The position numbers and the translations under genes are program-made. Shown here in pieces: positions 8,284-16,249 of a stretch of DNA of 39,572 bases. The stretch's first letter is position 1. Each line of letters begins with the position of its first letter. The notes below the pieces were generated by a model that was not told the DNA's origin, did not search any database, and worked only from the letters and a program-made list of their open reading frames with translations. The DNA comes from an uncultured Mucilaginibacter sp. (GTDB lineage Bacteria > Bacteroidota > Bacteroidia > Sphingobacteriales > Sphingobacteriaceae), in NCBI GenBank assembly GCA_903863845.1, contig CAIPDP010000058.1, forward strand, positions 1 through 39,572. The letters are read 5' to 3'.

Positions 8284-9108
8284 ATGGGCAAATCTAAGCT
8301 TCTGTTCATTACACATGAAATGTCACCTTTCCTTGAGCTCACAAAAATTTCTGAAATTACGCGCCAATTGCCCCAGGCAATGCAGGAAAAAGGTTACGAG
8401 ATCCGTATCCTGATGCCGCGTTTCGGAAATATCAATGAGCGCCGGAACCGGTTGCATGAAGTGATCCGTTTATCGGGTATGAACATCATTATTAATGATA
8501 ATGACAATCCATTGATCATTAAGGTAGCCTCGATCCCGGCAGCGCGGATGCAGGTTTATTTTCTCGACAACGAGGAATATTTCCAGCGCAAGCATGTGTT
8601 TACGGACAAAGAGGGTAAATTTTATGCCGACAATGACGAGAGAATGATCTTCTTCTGCAAAGGTGCATTGGAAACTGTTAAAAAATTAGGTTGGGCTCCC
8701 GATGTTATTCACTGCCATGGCTGGATGAGTGCATTAGTACCGGCTTATCTTAAAACTACTTATAAGGACGATCCAACCTTCAAAAATTCAAAAGTGGTGT
8801 ATTCCATCTACGAAAATGAATTTTCAGGCAGCCTGAATCCTGATTTCGCCAACAAAGCTGTCATGGCTGATATGACCGAATCACACACTGAGGCTTATGC
8901 CCAGGGTACAAATACATCGTTGCATGCGGGTGCTGTTCAATATGCCGACGGAGTGGTATTTGGGAGCGATATCGCGGACGATGAAGTGTTAAATATTGTT
9001 AAAAACAGCCATAAACCCGTTTTAGAGTTCAATTCCACTTCTGATTTCGAAAATTATTACAATTTTTACGACGAAATTACCAATGAAGAATTGGTACATG
9101 TTGCATAA
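8284..9108 (+). CDS. Single-domain glycogen/starch-synthase-like protein (GT5 N-terminal domain only)
   Basis: The 274 residues match the N-terminal catalytic half of GT5 glycogen synthases: LLFITHEMSPFLELTKISEITRQLPQAM at the start, EIRILMPRFGNI, YFLDNEEYF, and PDVIHCHGWMSALVPAYLK. The ADP-glucose-binding motif KTGGL is replaced by LTKIS, and the second Rossmann half carrying the EPCGL-type region is missing; a full enzyme has about 480 residues. It therefore may not be a working synthase. Annotation as glycogen/starch synthase is common for such proteins in Bacteroidota. It is divergent from panC, and its stop lies 15 bases before the DUF4270 ATG, so those two are probably one operon. Confidence 0.8.
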   Translation: MGKSKLLFITHEMSPFLELTKISEITRQLPQAMQEKGYEIRILMPRFGNINERRNRLHEVIRLSGMNIIINDNDNPLIIKVASIPAARMQVYFLDNEEYFQRKHVFTDKEGKFYADNDERMIFFCKGALETVKKLGWAPDVIHCHGWMSALVPAYLKTTYKDDPTFKNSKVVYSIYENEFSGSLNPDFANKAVMADMTESHTEAYAQGTNTSLHAGAVQYADGVVFGSDIADDEVLNIVKNSHKPVLEFNSTSDFENYYNFYDEITNEELVHVA

Positions 9109-9123
9109 GCTTTGAGATCAGAT

Positions 9124-10554
9124 ATGAAATTCTTCCGGTTAGACTTATTAACCCTGTTGATAAGTCTTTTTATTTTTAATGGCTGTAAAAACGAGGGCGC
9201 CATCGGGCTTGGAATCAAATCCAATACCCAATTGACCGGCAACCTGATTGATACTTCTACTATTGTTATCAATACAGTACCTGACAAAGGCTACTATGCT
9301 TTTGGTCTTCAACCTCAGGACTCTATTGTAACTACCGGCCTAACAAAAACCCCACTTGGCTATTTCCAGGATCCGGTTTTGGGTACGGTACAATCCAATA
9401 TAATTGCTGGTCTTAACCTGCCCGGTCAAAGTTCCTATTTACTGCCAACTGGCACGATCATTATTGATTCGGCAGTTCTTGCTTTGAAGTATGCCGATGG
9501 TTTCTACGGCGACTCGCTGACTTCTCAATATAAGGTTAACGTGTACCAGTTAACATCCCGTCCATCGCCAAGTCAGGCCTATTATAACACCTCCAAATGG
9601 TCGTATAATCCAACCCTACTCGGTTCACGCACTTTCTATGCCCGTACACACGACAGCATCAAAATCTTTAACATTATCAAAGGAGCGCCAGACACATTGA
9701 TCAAAGTTGCACCGCAGTTACGGATACCTATTAGCAAAAACTTTATCAATAATATTCTGTTTAACGCCGGTACCACACAATTGTCGTCGAACACCGTTTT
9801 CCTGAATAACGTGAAAGGGTTATTTATTAGCATGGATCCAACAGGAATGCAAGGTTCTGGAGGCACTTTCATGTTTTCGCTTGCCGACTCCCTAAATGTC
9901 TATTATCACTCTATAAACGGAACGACAATTGATACTTCGTCTGTATCACTGCCATTATCAGGCACTTCCTCTCCGCATTCGGCTCAGATCATTCGCAAAC
10001 CATCAAATGCTGTTACTACTGAACTGGCTAACACAACCACTGGTTCACGTAATGTGATCTACTTCCAGGGTTTGGCAGGCTTAAAGGCGAAGATCAGTTT
10101 CCCTTATTTGAAGAATATTCTAAAAACAGTAGGAAGCCGGATCGTTATCAACAGAGCCGAGCTTGTGATCACTGCTATGCCCGGTAGCACGATACCTTAT
10201 GTAGCACAACCCAAGTTAAGTATGTACAAATGGGACATTTCACATACGCCGGTTGAATTGCAGGACGCTTCGAGCACCGATGCACGATCAGGAGGTCTGA
10301 GTACATTTGGCGGCTTTTATAATCCCACTAACGAAAGTTATCACTTTACAGTTACTGGCTATATACAAGACCTGATGGATGGCAATACAGTCGACTATGG
10401 CACCTTTATTGCCCCGGTGGATACCACCAATAAAACCACTGTCGATTACCTTCCAACAACCCAAACAGCCGGCCGAACTATAGCAGTAGGTACCGACCCT
10501 AACTCGCCGTACCGAATAAAGCTTAATATTATTTATACTAAAATAAATCAATAA
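9124..10554 (+). CDS. DUF4270-family lipoprotein
   Basis: A lipoprotein signal (MKFFRLDLLTLLISLFIFNGC) with cysteine at residue 21 (taking the ATG at 9124; a TTG at 9112 would add four residues) points to an envelope location. The mature part has the DUF4270 pattern: GAIGLGIKSN after the lipobox, then a series of beta-rich segments (YAFGLQPQDSIVTTG, TPLGYFQDPVLGTVQSNI, TIIIDSAVLALKY) and a C-terminal FHFTVTGYIQDLMDG-like region. The family is typical of Bacteroidota and has no settled function. It follows the glycogen-synthase-like gene closely and ends just before a strong terminator. Confidence 0.85.
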   Translation: MKFFRLDLLTLLISLFIFNGCKNEGAIGLGIKSNTQLTGNLIDTSTIVINTVPDKGYYAFGLQPQDSIVTTGLTKTPLGYFQDPVLGTVQSNIIAGLNLPGQSSYLLPTGTIIIDSAVLALKYADGFYGDSLTSQYKVNVYQLTSRPSPSQAYYNTSKWSYNPTLLGSRTFYARTHDSIKIFNIIKGAPDTLIKVAPQLRIPISKNFINNILFNAGTTQLSSNTVFLNNVKGLFISMDPTGMQGSGGTFMFSLADSLNVYYHSINGTTIDTSSVSLPLSGTSSPHSAQIIRKPSNAVTTELANTTTGSRNVIYFQGLAGLKAKISFPYLKNILKTVGSRIVINRAELVITAMPGSTIPYVAQPKLSMYKWDISHTPVELQDASSTDARSGGLSTFGGFYNPTNESYHFTVTGYIQDLMDGNTVDYGTFIAPVDTTNKTTVDYLPTTQTAGRTIAVGTDPNSPYRIKLNIIYTKINQ

Positions 10555-10667: not shown

Positions 10668-12503
10668 ATGTGCGGCATAGTTGGATATATAGGCTACAGA
10701 GATGCTTACCCCATCGTTATCAAGGGTTTACATCGGCTCGAATACCGTGGATATGACAGTTCAGGGGTAGCTTTAATTGATAAAGAGCTAAAAGTTTATA
10801 AAAAGGCAGGCAAAGTAGCCGACCTTGAAAAATTTGCCGAAGGACTAAATACCAAAGGCACCATTGGCATGGGCCATACACGCTGGGCGACTCACGGTGC
10901 CCCCAGCGACCGCAATTCGCACCCGCATTCCTCGGGCAACAGGAAGCTCACGATAATCCACAACGGTATCATCGAAAACTATGCGACCATCAAAGAGGCC
11001 CTGCTGGCTAAAGGTCATGTTTTTTTAAGCGATACAGATACCGAGATATTGGTACACCTGATTGAAGATATACAACAGGAAACCAGGCTTGATCTTCGTG
11101 AAGCCGTGCGCGTAGCACTGAATAAGGTTATTGGTGCCTATGCCATTGTTATCATGAGCGCCGATGACCACGATCAACTGATCGCGGCACGCAAAGGCAG
11201 CCCGATGGTGATCGGCGTTGGCAAGGGCGAATATTTTGTCGCTTCTGATGCAACACCTATCGTTGAATTTACCAAAAACGTCATCTACCTGAACGATAAT
11301 GAGATCGCTTATATCCGGCGCGAAGATCTGCTGATTAAAAATATCGACAATACTGTTCAAACTCCCTATATACAGGAACTTGACCTGAAGCTGGAAATGC
11401 TTGAAAAAGGGGGCTACGAACATTTCATGCTCAAAGAGATCTACGAACAACCGCGTTCTATACGTGATTGTATGCGCGGCAGGATCTATCCTCAACAAGG
11501 CAAGGTCCAACTCGGCGGCATTAAAGAATATGTTGAAAAATTAAAGAATGTCGACCGCATCATTATTATCGCCTGCGGCACCTCCTGGCATGCCGGACTG
11601 GTTGGCGAATACCTGATAGAAGAATATGCGCGCGTTTCAGTAGAAGTTGAATACGCTTCCGAATTCAGGTACCGTAATCCGATCATAACGGAAAAAGATC
11701 TGGTGATCGCCATTTCCCAGTCGGGAGAAACTGCCGATACCATGGCTGCACTTGAGCTGGCGAAAGAAAAAGGAGCAACTATTTTCGGCATTTGTAATGT
11801 GGTAGGTGCCTCTATTCCCCGCATTACCGATGCAGGTGTTTATACCCACGCCGGCCCCGAGATCGGTGTAGCTTCTACCAAGGCATTTACCGCTCAGGTT
11901 ACCGTGTTAACACTGATCGCTTTTTATATTGCCCAGCAGCGGGGTACCATCACCCAAAGCAAATTGATTGAATACCTGACCGAACTTAACCAAATCCCTG
12001 AATTGGTTGAAAGGGCACTGCAATCAAACGAACGCGTAAAAGAAATTGCAGCAAAATTCAAGGATTCAACCAATTGCCTGTTCCTGGGCCGTGGCAACGC
12101 TTTCCCGGTAGCATTGGAGGGCGCGCTTAAACTCAAAGAAATTTCGTACATCCATGCCGAAGGATACCCGGCAGCAGAAATGAAACACGGACCGATAGCA
12201 CTGATCGACGACGATATGCCGGTAGTATTTATCGCAACGCACCATTCGTCGTACGAAAAGGTGATCAGTAATATCCAGGAAGTAAAAGCAAGAAAAGGTC
12301 ACGTTATTGCTATAGTTACTGAGGGGGATACTGACGTGAAAGCCATGGCCGATTATGTGATCGAGATACCGCAAACTGCCGAAGCATTCGTTCCTTTACT
12401 GGCAACCATACCATTGCAATTACTGGCCTATCATATCGCCGTAATGCGGGGATGCAACGTCGATCAGCCGCGTAACCTGGCTAAATCTGTAACGGTTGAG
12501 TAG
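10668..12503 (+). CDS. glmS: Glutamine-fructose-6-phosphate aminotransferase (isomerising)
   Basis: GlmS makes glucosamine-6-phosphate from fructose-6-phosphate and glutamine, the first step to UDP-GlcNAc. The N-terminal glutaminase starts MCGIVGYIG, where Cys2 becomes the nucleophile; HRLEYRGYDSSG and GHTRWATHG follow. Two SIS sugar-isomerase domains follow (ACGTSWHAG, SQSGETADT, then LGRGNAFPVALEGALKLKE and EGYPAAEMKHGP). At 611 residues it is full length. The last codons (AKSVTVE and stop) lie at a mobile-element junction: from about base 12497 on the sequence seems to come from the element, which rebuilds Val-Glu-stop. The original terminator is now at 16215. Confidence 0.98.
   Translation: MCGIVGYIGYRDAYPIVIKGLHRLEYRGYDSSGVALIDKELKVYKKAGKVADLEKFAEGLNTKGTIGMGHTRWATHGAPSDRNSHPHSSGNRKLTIIHNGIIENYATIKEALLAKGHVFLSDTDTEILVHLIEDIQQETRLDLREAVRVALNKVIGAYAIVIMSADDHDQLIAARKGSPMVIGVGKGEYFVASDATPIVEFTKNVIYLNDNEIAYIRREDLLIKNIDNTVQTPYIQELDLKLEMLEKGGYEHFMLKEIYEQPRSIRDCMRGRIYPQQGKVQLGGIKEYVEKLKNVDRIIIIACGTSWHAGLVGEYLIEEYARVSVEVEYASEFRYRNPIITEKDLVIAISQSGETADTMAALELAKEKGATIFGICNVVGASIPRITDAGVYTHAGPEIGVASTKAFTAQVTVLTLIAFYIAQQRGTITQSKLIEYLTELNQIPELVERALQSNERVKEIAAKFKDSTNCLFLGRGNAFPVALEGALKLKEISYIHAEGYPAAEMKHGPIALIDDDMPVVFIATHHSSYEKVISNIQEVKARKGHVIAIVTEGDTDVKAMADYVIEIPQTAEAFVPLLATIPLQLLAYHIAVMRGCNVDQPRNLAKSVTVE
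12487..12503 (+). other. Left attachment junction (attL)
   Basis: The region CTGTAACGGTTGAGTAG ends glmS. The part up to ACGGT should be host glmS and the rest element-derived. It differs from the right junction only at wobble positions within SVTVE-stop. Confidence 0.65.
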
Positions 12504-12751
12504 AATGAACTAGGGGGAAACGAATGCCCCTTGTTTATCAAGGGTTTAGGGGGTGTAAATGGATACGTAATTTTCTGTTTACTCCCCTTTTCAATTTCTG
12601 AAATGACCACTGGTATTCGTAGGTTGACATCGAGGTGATGCACCTTGTTTACCCCGTCATGTGAGACTATAATTCGGTCAACAACAGTCCTCAAAATCAT
12701 CCCCTTTCCTTTACCATCCCAATTTGTGACCGATGAAAAATAGTTCCCCGA
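12497..12751 (-). pseudogene. C-terminal fragment of a serine recombinase at the left element end
   Basis: The minus-strand frame is open from 12751 into the attL core. It includes MILRTVVDRIIVSHDG and HHLDVNLRIPVV, a pattern like the beta-rich C-terminal end of large serine recombinases (VxxIxV.. H.L.I.F.LP). No catalytic domain precedes it; the intact recombinase gene just to the right runs the other way and appears to lack such a C-terminus. The frame carries on into antisense glmS in the present arrangement (stop at 12464). In the reconstructed circle it continues in frame into the HTH-like gene at the right end. It could be a remnant or a separated part of the neighbouring recombinase; this is inference from composition and motif. 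Confidence 0.4.
12528..12544 (+). other. Hairpin just inside the element, after glmS
   Basis: CCCTTG/CAAGGG (12528-12533 and 12539-12544) with loop TTTAT, 24 bases after the glmS stop. It is followed by TTTAGGGGG, not a T run, so it is at best a weak replacement terminator for glmS. Confidence 0.3.
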
Positions 12752-12794
12752 TTATTCCGGATACACAGAGTAATTATTTAATTTCCAGACTTAT

Positions 12795-14114
12795 ATGGAA
12801 ACACTTCACATACTTACCAGAGTAAGTACATCGGTTCAAGAAGAAGATGGTACTTCATTAAACACTCAAAAAGAACATGGGATTGACCTTTCGAAACGGT
12901 TGGGTATGAAGTACCAAATTCATAATGAAGGGGGAACATCATCCTCGAAAGACACGTTGGATAATCGACCAGTTATGGTTAATCTACTTCGACTGATGGA
13001 CGAAGGGGTAGTAAGAAACTTATATGTTTACAACACAGATAGAATAAGTCGAAATCAATCGACCTGGTATCTCATTCGTCAGAAAATGGTTAAAAATGGG
13101 GTCGTTCTTTATACTTCCAACGGGAGGTACGACACCAGTGGGACGATGGAGAACTTGATATTAGGAGTTCTCAGTGAAGTTAGTCAATACGATAATAAGG
13201 TCAGAACGGAACGTTCCCGACTGGGTAAAATCGAAAAAGTCAAATCCAACTTTTACAGAGGAGGAGACCCACCCTTTGGATATAGAATTGAAAAGGAACC
13301 TAAAGGTTCTCGATTGGTTGTTGACGAATACGAAAGTCCATACGTTCAATCAATTTATCAAATGTATTCCGAAGGTTTCAGTGTCAAAGAAATTAAACAT
13401 TTTCTAGAGTTAAATCACGTTAAGACAAGGAGAGATAACAACCACTGGTCACTTGGTTCAATCCAACTCATACTTCGTAATGATACTTACATAGGTATCG
13501 ATGAGTTTACAGATAAAAAGAGTGGTATGACGATTAGAAACCAAATTCCTCACGTTATATCGAGTAAACTTTTTGAGGTAGTACAGGAACGTCGAATTCG
13601 AACTCTGACGAGGAAGGGTCAGATTAACCGGACTACAAAAGATTATCTATTTAGAGATTTTATGTATTGTTCCTGTGGGTCACCGATTGGAGGTCGAATT
13701 CAAATTGAGAAGTCCGTTTACCACTATTATTGTCCTCTGTCAGAAAGGAAATTCAATAATTCAAAACCCAGTGACCAAACTTGTAACATGAAAAGATGTC
13801 TCCAAATCGGTATCACTGAGGAATTCCTGTGGGACAACATAGTCAATTTACTATCAAACACTGTGAAGTTGAAATTTGAATTTAAATCGTCACTAAGGAA
13901 TGACCCGAACTTGACCCTCCTCATCAACAATCAAAAGAGAAGACTTCAGGAACGATTGAAAAGACTTGAAACGAAACTTGAAACGATTAATGATGGATTA
14001 ATTGGGGTTGAGAAAGATAAACTGATGGGAAATTATACGTCCCATGAAGTTTATGAGGGACTAAAAGTGTCTTTGAATAAGGATTCTTTGGAGAGGTTTA
14101 ACATACCATCATGA
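12795..14114 (+). CDS. Large serine recombinase / integrase, alanine-free
   Basis: This 439-residue protein has the resolvase catalytic domain at residues 1-150 (Arg9 and nucleophile Ser11 in LTRVSTS; DRISRN at 82-87), then a Recombinase domain with GDPPFGYRIE and an HTH-like VKEIKHFLELNHVKTRR region, a zinc ribbon (Cys292, 294, 313, 330, 335) and a charged coiled-coil near residues 380-410. Such enzymes integrate and excise DNA through att sites. It ends soon after the coiled coil, shorter than many large serine integrases, and a C-terminus-like piece lies on the other strand at 12497-12751. There is no GC dinucleotide anywhere in the gene and so no alanine. Positions where relatives usually have Ala show Thr, Val or Ser (LTRVS for YARVS). 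It is the best candidate for the integrase of this element. Confidence 0.9.
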   Translation: METLHILTRVSTSVQEEDGTSLNTQKEHGIDLSKRLGMKYQIHNEGGTSSSKDTLDNRPVMVNLLRLMDEGVVRNLYVYNTDRISRNQSTWYLIRQKMVKNGVVLYTSNGRYDTSGTMENLILGVLSEVSQYDNKVRTERSRLGKIEKVKSNFYRGGDPPFGYRIEKEPKGSRLVVDEYESPYVQSIYQMYSEGFSVKEIKHFLELNHVKTRRDNNHWSLGSIQLILRNDTYIGIDEFTDKKSGMTIRNQIPHVISSKLFEVVQERRIRTLTRKGQINRTTKDYLFRDFMYCSCGSPIGGRIQIEKSVYHYYCPLSERKFNNSKPSDQTCNMKRCLQIGITEEFLWDNIVNLLSNTVKLKFEFKSSLRNDPNLTLLINNQKRRLQERLKRLETKLETINDGLIGVEKDKLMGNYTSHEVYEGLKVSLNKDSLERFNIPS

Positions 14115-14160
14115 GGAGTTTTTATATTATCGGATATATTATCGAAAATAACGAGAAAGA

Positions 14161-14616
14161 TTAATTTGAAGATTTAATTTTATCGTTTAGAAACTGTACA
14201 AGCTCATGTCCTAAGTCTTTATATCTACTGGAAATTTTCATTCTTTGAGAGAAACTGATAAATTTAATTATGATTATTACTTTTCGGTTACTATGTAAGA
14301 TGAAAGTTTCAATATTATCAAAATCTATTTTTCCACCATCAACTATAAAGGTTTCACACACCAGCCTGTCGTCAAAGTAATAGATATCACCTAAGTAATC
14401 ATTTTTAAAAAATTTGTAGATACAATATGTAAATAAGTAAGTCAAAATAAACATCGCCGGCATTTCAATGACAAATAGATGTATCCCAATATTCGGTAGA
14501 GAAATAACTGCAGAAACGATTACCGATATGCTTATAATCGGCCATATATAACTATCATCCTTTTCTAAAATTTTTTCACCATCCTTTGGTGTTTCGAAGA
14601 CCTTGAGGCGTTTCAT
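14161..14616 (-). CDS. Hypothetical membrane protein with a possible PH-like C-terminal domain (passenger gene)
   Basis: The 151 residues start with a short charged cytoplasmic stretch, followed by two hydrophobic segments at about 24-43 and 48-68, then a soluble part with alternating beta strands (DIYYFDDRLVCETFIVDGGKI) and a final helix (GHELVQFLNDKI), as in bacterial PH-like domains. I do not recognise a specific family. Within the element it is the odd one out: about eight GpC against about eleven CpG, a normal ratio, whereas the genes on both sides have almost none. That suggests a cargo gene acquired separately. It faces the recombinase tail to tail, with 46 bases between them. Confidence 0.55.
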   Translation of the reverse strand: MKRLKVFETPKDGEKILEKDDSYIWPIISISVIVSAVISLPNIGIHLFVIEMPAMFILTYLFTYCIYKFFKNDYLGDIYYFDDRLVCETFIVDGGKIDFDNIETFILHSNRKVIIIIKFISFSQRMKISSRYKDLGHELVQFLNDKIKSSN

Positions 14617-14652
14617 TGTTCAAATTTGGGGTTAGGTAAATATTATTGTCGT

Positions 14653-14846
14653 TTATAAATCAAGTATATATTTTATCTCAGGGTTGGTAGATAGCTTATC
14701 GATTTTCGATATTTGACCGTCGATTTCATCTATTTTATAACCACTAAACGTTTGAATAGTCAAAGTAAGATTTGATAATTGTTGACTTTCGTCATATAGG
14801 GACTTAAGTTTATCTAAAGTACTAACAAAAAATTAATTTTCCTCAT
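14653..14846 (-). pseudogene. Small coiled-coil ORF with an apparent one-base frameshift
   Basis: On the minus strand an ATG at 14846 opens MRKINF, then a run of six T (14827-14832) leads to a stop in that frame. The next frame continues smoothly as STLDKLKSLYDESQQLSNL to KIDEIDGQISKIDKLST and a TAA at 14653. With one more T the whole would be a 64-residue helical, coiled-coil-like protein without alanine. It may be a decayed gene, a slippage site or a sequencing error. The function is unknown. Composition (one GpC) matches the element core. Confidence 0.4.
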
Positions 14847-14964
14847 TTCCAGAAAATTTTATCTAGAATTTTATTTCATAAAAACCTCTGAACGGGGGTT
14901 TTTACCAAAAATACCTCTTATTTACCCGGGGATACGGGAAGGAAAGACCGGAGTACGGAGGGAG

Positions 14965-15084
14965 GGGGGTATAACTATATAAAAGGTGTGAGGATTAACA
15001 CCTTCAGTCTCCCCTGGTCAGACTCGTAACTGTTTGGGCAACCCGAGGACCACTGAGTATAACAACTACTTCGGCAAAGACCCC
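14965..15084 (+). ncRNA. Candidate structured RNA upstream of the small recombinase gene
   Basis: Between coding regions there is a compact set of complementary segments. The outer pair is GGGGT (14966-14970) with ACCCC (15080-15084). Hairpin one is AAGGTGT/ACACCTT (14983-14989 and 14998-15004). A second, stacked arm is made of CAGT/ACTG (15005-15008, 15052-15055), GGTC/GACC (15016-15019, 15048-15051), CTCG/CGAG (15023-15026, 15044-15047) and GTT/AAC. Two of the few GpC left in the element (15038, 15074) are here. Strand is uncertain; the plus strand is assumed because of the downstream gene. It may be a leader, an independent RNA or a DNA recombination site. No known RNA family was recognised. 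Confidence 0.4.
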
Positions 15085-15088
15085 TGTG

Positions 15089-15114
15089 TCAATTTTGAAC
15101 TCTACTCAAATTGA
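15089..15114. other. AT-rich hairpin upstream of the small recombinase gene
   Basis: TCAATTT/AAATTGA (15089-15095 and 15108-15114) with a 12-base loop. It could be part of the RNA leader or a protein-binding dyad. Confidence 0.3.
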
Positions 15115-15136
15115 TAACAAAATATAACGATAATAC

Positions 15137-15167
15137 TCTGGAAATGACCAGATTATACGTATTTTTG
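15137..15167 (+). promoter_or_regulatory. Putative promoter and overlapping operator of the small recombinase gene
   Basis: TATTTTTG at 15160-15167 fits the -7 consensus; a CTG at 15138-15140 sits at the right spacing for a -33 box. The dyad TCTGG-AAATGA-CCAGA (15137-15152) covers that -33 region, a likely operator position. The loop carries AAATGACCA, which also occurs near both element ends. Confidence 0.45.
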
Positions 15168-15202
15168 GGTAATCATTTAATCAGTCTAAAATAATTACAC
15201 GG

Positions 15203-15811
15203 ATGGGAACTACAGCGTACTATATGAGGACTAGTCACTACCTTCAGAACATCGGTACTCAGGTTGATAAAATTGAAGAAGGTTGGAAGGTGTACAAAGA
15301 TGAAGGTATTTCAGGTCGGGTATCATTCGAACACCGACCAGATGGTCGTAAACTCCTAGAGGATATCCAAAAAGGTAAAATCACTGAGGTCGTTGTTCTC
15401 AGGATTGATAGACTGGGTCGGGACACCACCGATATATTGAATACCATTAGAACCATCCACCAGTTCAAAGTACCCATTACTTCAAAGAATGAGGGTATAA
15501 CCACACTGGTTGATGGTAAGGAAAATCCGATGAGTAATCTCCTCGTTAACATACTTTCGTCGTTGAGTGAATACCAATACCACCAGACCCGAGAGAAGAC
15601 ACTGGACGGGATATTAAGGGGTAAATTGGAGGGTAAATACAAAGGTCGAAAGTCCGGTAGTACAGAACCAGTCGAAAAGTTCCTGTCCAAACCCAAAGTG
15701 AAAAAAGTTAAGATGATGTTAGAACAAGGAATGGGAATTCGTACCATCAGTACCATCGTTGACTGTAGTACCAACTTCGTGTATAAGGTCAAGGAAAAAC
15801 TTGTTGCATAA
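15203..15811 (+). CDS. Small serine recombinase (resolvase/invertase type)
   Basis: The 202-residue protein has the full resolvase catalytic domain: Arg9 and Ser11 (YYMRTSHYL), VVVLRIDRLGRDTTDIL with Asp69, Arg70 and Arg73, and the long E-helix region EYQYHQTREKTLDGILRGK. GKYKGRKSG and a C-terminal HTH (IRTISTIVDCSTNFVYKVK) follow, as in Tn3 resolvases and Hin-type invertases. Such enzymes resolve cointegrates or invert short segments. Only two alanines occur, at residue 5 and the last position; from 15217 to 15805 there is no GpC. The gene converges on the HTH-like gene with four bases between stops. In this element it could act on the internal sites or help the larger recombinase. Confidence 0.9.
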   Translation: MGTTAYYMRTSHYLQNIGTQVDKIEEGWKVYKDEGISGRVSFEHRPDGRKLLEDIQKGKITEVVVLRIDRLGRDTTDILNTIRTIHQFKVPITSKNEGITTLVDGKENPMSNLLVNILSSLSEYQYHQTREKTLDGILRGKLEGKYKGRKSGSTEPVEKFLSKPKVKKVKMMLEQGMGIRTISTIVDCSTNFVYKVKEKLVA

Positions 15812-15815
15812 TGGA

Positions 15816-16112
15816 TTAACCTGGGGGTTGATAGTTAACAATATCGACCTTAACTTCCTTTATATCAGGTTCAAAGGTTCTATAGAACCTGTTGATACTC
15901 CTTTTTTTCTTCGTATAAATCGACCAACATTTACTCTGGGTAAATGTAGTACCCCTAGGGGTTTTATAGTCATTTTCAACCATCCAATCACTGATTTCTT
16001 TGAAGTTCAGACCCTCATCCTCATGTTTAGTACGGATTAAATCGAAAAGAACCTGTTGGTGTTGAGAATAGGGAGATAACCACAGGTTGGATGAGGTCAA
16101 ACGGACACTCAT
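15816..16112 (-). CDS. Small HTH-like protein related to serine-recombinase C-terminal regions
   Basis: From the ATG at 16112 this is 98 residues. The core GLNFKEISDWMVENDYKTPRG followed by TKKKRSINRFYR is the pattern of a helix-turn-helix found in the Recombinase region of large serine recombinases and in small stand-alone proteins of Bacteroidota elements. The longer frame from 16232 would begin in host DNA beyond the att core, so I chose the internal ATG. It contains no alanine and no GpC. In the excised circle its frame is open upstream through attP into the recombinase-like fragment at the left end, so it may be the distal part of a larger protein. A DNA-binding or directionality role is possible but not shown. 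Confidence 0.6.
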   Translation of the reverse strand: MSVRLTSSNLWLSPYSQHQQVLFDLIRTKHEDEGLNFKEISDWMVENDYKTPRGTTFTQSKCWSIYTKKKRSINRFYRTFEPDIKEVKVDIVNYQPPG

Positions 16113-16177
16113 AACCAGAAAATGACCAGTTGAAGGGGAGGATTTGGATGGTGTGTGCGTACTTGTTGAAGGGTGCT

Positions 16178-16194
16178 CAGTTACGGTGGAATAA
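16178..16194 (+). other. Right attachment junction (attR)
   Basis: CAGTTACGGTGGAATAA repeats the glmS end in the same reading phase. The part after ACGGT is inferred to be the original glmS 3' end (Val-Glu-stop) and is followed by the displaced terminator. Confidence 0.65.
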
Positions 16195-16214
16195 TCAACA
16201 CAAGAATTATCATA

Positions 16215-16249
16215 AAGCCATGGTTTAATCATCAGCCGTGGCTTTTTTT
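16215..16249 (+). terminator. Displaced original glmS terminator
   Basis: Stem AAGCCATGG/CCGTGGCTT (16215-16223 and 16236-16244; one T-G pair), followed by a seven-T run. It starts 20 bases after the duplicated Val-Glu-stop at 16192, the spacing expected after glmS, but glmS now ends 3.7 kb upstream. Confidence 0.75.

Follow-up and report, generated by a model that had tools for sequence, protein, structure and literature searches.

A window of 39,572 nucleotides from an uncultured Mucilaginibacter sp. (contig CAIPDP010000058.1) was analyzed, and we identified in it a serine-recombinase element at the 3′ end of the host gene glmS whose core DNA has been purged of almost every GpC dinucleotide. 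The loss is likely due to enzymes that cut double-stranded DNA at GpC, with RGCY as the first target (R, purine; Y, pyrimidine), and that destroy copies of the element entering new cells; we assign this explanation a probability of roughly two in three. The element extends from about position 12489 to 16194, between two copies of a short core. An initial annotation, made from the sequence alone, had proposed a mobile element at this place, which agrees with the two serine recombinases and the repeated core at the 3′ end of glmS.

Between 12642 and 14201, GpC is absent (53.1 expected from base composition), CpG occurs 55 times, and the flanking GpC dinucleotides lie at 12640 and 14202. The gene of the large recombinase (12795–14114) contains 0 GpC (46.4 expected) and 46 CpG. 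The absence of GpC and the 46 CpG of the gene reproduce the initial annotation, and the two further stretches that it had described as GpC-free, 15217–15805 and 15808–16156, were confirmed by direct count. Within the element the depletion is not uniform: GpC is near normal at 14161–14616 (8 vs. 9.9 expected), and reduced, not zero, in the non-coding DNA at 14617–15202 (3 vs. 17.3 expected). Alanine is nearly absent from the encoded proteins, as had been reported, with 0 of 439 residues in the large recombinase, 2 of 202 in the small recombinase, and none in a third conserved open reading frame (ORF); the length of the latter had to be corrected from 98 to 138 amino acids. Scanning the window in 500-bp segments revealed observed/expected (o/e) ratios of GpC below 0.3 in 10 of 157 segments, all of them within 12501–16000 and thus within the element. 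A window scan, suggested earlier as a check, was also run on a sample of the host genome (262 kb, 1008 segments of 500 bp; two contigs consisting entirely of N contributed none), and no equally GpC-free stretch was found, the lowest ratio being 0.78.

Several simple causes were rejected. Host-wide bias does not apply, as none of the 1008 segments showed comparable depletion. Chance or AT-richness is contradicted by normal CpG and by a recoding simulation, in which the same 439 residues were written 2000 times with the codon usage of 15 host ORFs from the window. These versions contained 47.4 GpC on average and never fewer than 31, so the alanine-free protein is not the cause of the zero count. 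Avoidance of alanine at the level of protein or tRNA was rejected because GpC is absent in all reading frames and from non-coding DNA. Together with the recoding of alanine codons described below, this supports the earlier view that the pressure acts on nucleic acid, not on protein.

To follow the trait in relatives, we collected homologues of both recombinases. For the large recombinase, 163 were found at E ≤ 1e-20, and the best 120, query included, were used; for the small recombinase, 685 were found at E 1e-10, of which the best 120 were used and 119 fetched. Alanine content served as a proxy for GpC in most homologues, an imperfect label, as loci L004 and L007 are low in alanine and have half-normal GpC. 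Among the 108 large recombinases of at least 400 residues (from the best 120 of 163), 69 contain less than 1.2% alanine, 28 more than 2.5%, and 11 lie in between; the small recombinase lacks alanine in 67 of the 119 fetched homologues (from the best 120 of 685). Related loci came from genome contigs (19) and viral contigs (1), and glmS was present on the fetched stretch at 14 of the 19 genomic loci and at the viral one (15 of 20); L006 and L022/L026 were taken as one record and counted once. At the level of DNA, GpC o/e was ≤ 0.10 in 13 of 21 recombinase genes (L002–L021 and the window, several of them partial). The prediction that relatives share zero GpC and missing alanine was therefore borne out, and it extends to recombinases with low GpC and alanine that differ from that of the window by 30–70% in sequence.

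The occurrence of the family is sporadic. In the family of the host, the large recombinase was found in 1 of 301 genomes, the window's own, and matches were present in 3 of 395 genomes of the class and 2 of 395 of the phylum (overlapping sets that include the window's own genome), which fits horizontally moving DNA. Genomes G350 (L041) and G860 are among those matched, each with a recombinase 29% identical to that of the window. Phage and plasmid collections yielded only matches below 60% identity for both recombinases. Viral contigs gave no match when searched with the single large-recombinase protein; an alignment search returned one relative, L021, and the small recombinase 13 distant ones of ≤ 32% identity. 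We further surveyed 198 genomes for PF07508, with matches in 69 genomes at 139 places, of which 90 were examined (30 surveyed loci, L041, and 59 fetched). GpC-free ORFs (more than 15 GpC expected, o/e < 0.2) were found at 3 of the 90 places: the window, L041, and L051/L074, in the last case with a recombinase of another kind, from a genome that shares the window's genus. L041 (genome G350) likewise lies at glmS and its recombinase is 29% identical to that of the window; it contains 1 GpC in 8081 bp (222 expected), and this single GpC is in non-coding DNA (39.3 expected there). As side observations, the 8.1-kb element of L041 (6800–14880) carries cargo ORFs mostly without a Pfam match, one of them with HTH_17, and L074 (1–1875, genome G014) has, at the end of a contig, the gene of a large serine recombinase, with 0 GpC (41 expected) and no alanine in the product.

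The order in which GpC was lost could be read from two half-purged elements. In L002, observed over expected counts were 3/114 for RGCY, 46/184 for the mixed contexts RGCR/YGCY, and 35/74 for YGCR; the corresponding values in L021 were 0/106, 46/180, and 59/76. In four host segments, RGCY occurred at 1.0–1.3 of expectation. L005, L006, and L014 retain few sites and show no clear order. The non-palindromic words AGCC/GGCT (2/55 and 0/51) were depleted like the palindromes AGCT and GGCC. The loss also left its mark on alanine codons: RGCY context was seen for 1 of the 84 kept in four cargo genes and for 89 of 354 in the comparison set of six host genes (Fisher 1.7e-8). The proteins thus kept their alanine while the neighboring DNA was recoded, a sign that selection acted at the level of DNA. 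Two of the 13 distant viral contigs, L036 and L038, had RGCY ratios of 0.46 and 0.50, with 0.98 and 1.00 for the mixed contexts and other GpC contexts near 0.8–1.0, and the other 11 had RGCY ratios of 0.86–1.37; the dip gives a weak independent hint of RGCY as a target. Separately, in L013 (466–1536; 45% identity; from a metagenome-assembled genome titled Bordetella), only RGCY was strongly depleted (2 vs. 14.9 expected; mixed contexts 1.14).

GpC is not the only word missing. Expectations for other restriction words were derived from dinucleotide shuffles, and totals are sums over eight element and seven host segments. GGWCC occurred 9 times in the elements (about 58 expected) and 72 times in the hosts (about 99 expected), and CCWGG 11 times (about 47 expected) and 172 times (about 118 expected), respectively. 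The window element lacks GATC, a loss that the initial annotation had not reported (0 vs. 15.8, or about 16, expected), as do L041 (0/44) and L074 (0/6), and GATC is low in L014 (4/13). GATC avoidance as the common cause was rejected, as L002, L003, L005, and L021 keep normal GATC. GANTC is depleted in the window element (2/16; host 63/109) and in L074 (0/7), and normal in L041; the window element also has little GGWCC (1/6.7; host 31/43). L074, a short segment, is additionally without CATG and GTAC. CTAG was left uncounted, as it is nearly absent from some hosts too (2/74 in the host of the window). Depletion of several restriction words in combinations that vary by element is what restriction avoidance predicts. 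In the host DNA of the window itself, GATC is over-represented (265 vs. 118 in shuffles).

The explanation by GpC-cutting enzymes assumes that the element would pass between cells as unmodified double-stranded DNA, and that copies still carrying GpC would be destroyed by cutting enzymes on entry into a new cell. The main agent would be one GpC-reading nuclease with a preference like that of CviJI. Long-resident core genes would have reached zero GpC in this way, and newer cargo would still be in the process of being purged. Of the three causes originally offered, a GpC-reading nuclease is favored by the RGCY-first loss, the recoded alanine codons, and the depletion of other palindromes; the other two, deamination and an RNA toxin, agree less well with the data. 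A more far-reaching proposal, to which we give close to an even chance, is that an undescribed and widespread defence in Bacteroidota and their neighbors cuts GpC, RGCY first, that the glmS family gave up GpC and alanine in response, and that distant recombinase elements converged on this state independently.

A number of observations weigh against the explanation by GpC-cutting enzymes. The nucleases that the initial annotation had suggested looking for in hosts of relatives did not turn up: an enzyme cutting GpC or RGCY was recognized neither in the examined hosts nor in the scanned cargo, and no PF00145 methyltransferase match was found in G350, the host of the cleanest element (L041), or in G860. 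The window's own genome encodes a C5 methyltransferase beside a restriction enzyme of the MvaI/BcnI family (L134, 1249–3791; G000, C149), and G675 one beside an enzyme of the LlaJI family. Residual GpC in the window element is unordered (RGCY 4/36, mixed 8/63, YGCR 4/27), so the evidence for an ordered loss comes from L002 and L021. The core genes also lack YGCR entirely, which would require more than an RGCY site, and the coding strand of hsdR in L021 has 10 RGCR and 0 YGCY. Among the other words, GGWCC is somewhat low in the hosts too (72/99), the CCWGG excess of the hosts stems mainly from the host of the window, with the hosts of L041 and L002 near half, and the window element shows no shortage of CCWGG (3 vs. 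4.1). Finally, not all relatives are purged: GpC o/e is near 0.5 in L004, L007, and L018, 0.86–1.3 in L009–L012, and near 0.7 in L013, and a relative in G860 (29% identical) has normal GpC. Close relatives with normal GpC and alanine had been named beforehand as an observation that would speak against a purge, and relatives at about 48–58% identity do include some with half-normal or normal GpC; they show that the trait is labile, not that it arose by chance. In a tree of 112 recombinases classified by the alanine label (71 low, 39 high, and 2 in between, which were left out), the label changed 7 times, 6 of these changes being forced by well-supported branches. The GpC-free state is labile and has changed several times. 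The branches leading to L041, L043, and L074 are very long, and both convergence and an old shared state fit their positions.

The rival that survives best, though we consider it unlikely, dispenses with a single GpC enzyme and attributes the purge to the combined action of numerous common type II enzymes whose sites contain GC (GGCC, AGCT, TGCA, GCGC, GCNGC, and others). The loss of other palindromes, in combinations that differ between elements, agrees with it, and Flavobacterium psychrophilum CSF259-93 is reported to have 12 restriction–modification (R-M) systems, one of them with the predicted site GCSGC (PMC11837570). Against it stand the depletion of the non-palindromic AGCC/GGCT, as strong as that of AGCT and GGCC, and the core genes, which are without GpC in any context.

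Mutation appears improbable as the cause. Here, RGC on either strand would be the target of a cytosine methylase or a deaminase that converts GpC to GpT or ApC, and a preference for RGC on each strand would yield the same order of RGCY, mixed contexts, and YGCR. At four alignment columns that hold alanine in the high-alanine relatives, the residues of the low-alanine group are Ser 98, Val 70, Ala 54, Asn 9, Phe 8, Gly 5, Ile 1, and Pro 1. One of these columns turned to Val, as a single deamination of GCN gives, but two are mainly Ser, which one such deamination does not reach; with four columns to score, the test is not a strong one. Relative to the host, GT is raised (1.3-fold in the window core, 1.2-fold in L041), though no more than GA (1.5- and 1.3-fold) or GG. 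Mutation also leaves unexplained the recoding of retained alanine codons out of RGCY and the loss of GATC, GGWCC, and CCWGG in some elements.

Very improbable is an RNA-cutting toxin such as MqsR, which would read GCN in messages. In the window element, GpC is scarcest in coding regions, and the one-sided hsdR of L021 is what such a toxin would leave. Over four cargo genes, though, RGCR and YGCY on the coding strand stand at 29 to 16 (six host genes: 220 to 195), which is not strongly one-sided; moreover, the non-coding DNA of L041 is as clean as the coding DNA, and palindromes of double-stranded DNA were lost too. Least probable of all is a purge against a nuclease that sister elements at the glmS site, rather than hosts, would encode, for although defence genes do occur in the cargo of relatives (type I R-M in L021 and, in L002, a methyltransferase with a DrmD-like helicase), no GpC enzyme was recognized among the scanned cargo proteins, and type I R-M sites are longer and bipartite.

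The element is organized around the end of glmS (10668–12503, + strand), an ORF that was matched by tblastn to glmS of 15 related loci and whose 3′ end is the insertion site. An att-like core in its last codons (12489–12503, +), identified by pattern match, recurs in the same orientation at the far end of the element (16180–16194, +). The C-terminal sequence NLAKSVTVE of GlmS, read antisense, gives rise to the YSTVT stretch seen at recombinase ends; such a core-encoded stretch is present in 79 of 119 large-recombinase homologues (from the best 120 of 163, query included). The large serine recombinase of 439 amino acids (P0001; 12795–14114, +) has a Resolvase (PF00239, E 1.3e-17) and a Recombinase domain (PF07508, E 4.5e-15), both above cut-off; PF13408, a zinc ribbon, was not matched, and C292, C294, C313, C330, and C335 are invariant in the alignment. 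It is shorter than most relatives (about 550 amino acids) because its C-terminal tail lies elsewhere. The tail, located by tblastn with the tails of relatives (43% with that of P0010, E 5.9e-21), is found off the gene body at 12467–12739 (− strand), inverted and running into antisense glmS, and the window therefore lacks a full-length large recombinase. Judging from this arrangement, the gene looks as if it was split by inversion, so that the tail adjoins glmS and the body points away.

Downstream follow a cargo ORF of 151 amino acids (14161–14616, −; no Pfam match at E 0.1), which with its near-normal GpC is probably a recent arrival, the GpC-depleted non-coding stretch (14617–15202), and the small serine recombinase of 202 amino acids (15203–15811, +; PF00239, E 8.3e-25). 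The third conserved ORF (138 amino acids; 15816–16232, −) spans the far core and has relatives in L002, L005, L014, and L021. Its weak likeness to a piece of the Recombinase domain (PF07508, E 0.067, under the cut-off) suggests a possible role as a DNA-binding or directionality protein. The non-coding DNA 5′ of the small recombinase (14880–15210) folds somewhat better than shuffles (z −2.07) and perhaps represents a structured RNA or a recombination site; it has no Rfam match, and the Rfam search gave nothing near a gathering score (best E 0.4).

Among the related loci, L002, L005, and L021 carry the core-bearing recombinase tail twice, as inverted repeats of 263–272 bp with 97–99.6% identity that flank the gene. 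P0028 and P0029 share 548 identical residues and diverge at the core into antisense glmS in one case and the third ORF in the other, and both kinds of joint recur in the pair P0092 and P0095 (99.8% over 480). The simplest reading of these joints would be site-specific recombination at the glmS core in natural populations. L041 has the gene order third ORF, cargo, small recombinase, large recombinase, glmS. Regarding the cargo of relatives, L021 contains a perfect 1273-bp inverted repeat (1–1273 and 8378–9650) with the third ORF and the small recombinase, flanking type I R-M cargo, and the cargo of L002 (2601–7114) comprises a helicase resembling DrmD (best PADLOC match, E 2.1e-92) and a protein with ParB-like and N6/N4 methyltransferase parts, which together may form a DISARM-like system.

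If our explanation is true, the element keeps a record of the nucleases it has met, and the defences of its hosts could be read off from the words it lacks, among them a predicted enzyme with a two-base site. It would also suggest a recoding scheme for harmless Bacteroidota vectors, and the family is a source of recombinases directed at a conserved target, the end of glmS. In the literature consulted, mostly titles and the beginnings of abstracts, we found neither a GpC-free or alanine-free element nor serine recombinases at glmS in Bacteroidota.

Compared to known integrative elements with large serine recombinases, the window element shares the Resolvase and Recombinase domains, the repeated short core, and the fixed chromosomal site; it differs in the additional small serine recombinase and third conserved ORF and in a tail and body that are separable by inversion. 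No transfer genes were recognized among the four ORFs of the window element. The 3′ end of glmS is also the site of Tn7, and Tn7 and Tn7-like elements occupy the same neighborhood; here, however, serine recombinases take the place of TnsA–E, none of which was among the Pfam matches of the four ORFs, and crossover lies in the last glmS codons. As for the enzyme, the preference order of CviJI equals the order of word loss in L002 and L021, and its relaxed form, CviJI*, spares YGCR. CviJI is, however, an algal-virus enzyme to which no counterpart from bacteria was found here, and YGCR, too, is gone from the core genes of the element. The sites of CviJI and CviJI*, from Chlorella virus IL-3A, are given as RGCY/GC (PMC3681635). 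Plasmids are reported to lose the target words of restriction enzymes, more strongly so when small and of broad host range (PMC10359461), and this avoidance is a statistical dip for 6-bp sites, whereas here a two-base word is fully removed, with loss of an amino acid. Phages likewise avoid restriction sites, restriction avoidance normally takes the form of a statistical dip in 4- to 6-base sites, and we know of no two-base cutter from bacteria. Restriction avoidance and serine-recombinase elements are both familiar; a complete purge of a two-base word together with amino acid loss was not encountered in the literature consulted, and it points to an enzyme beyond those described so far.

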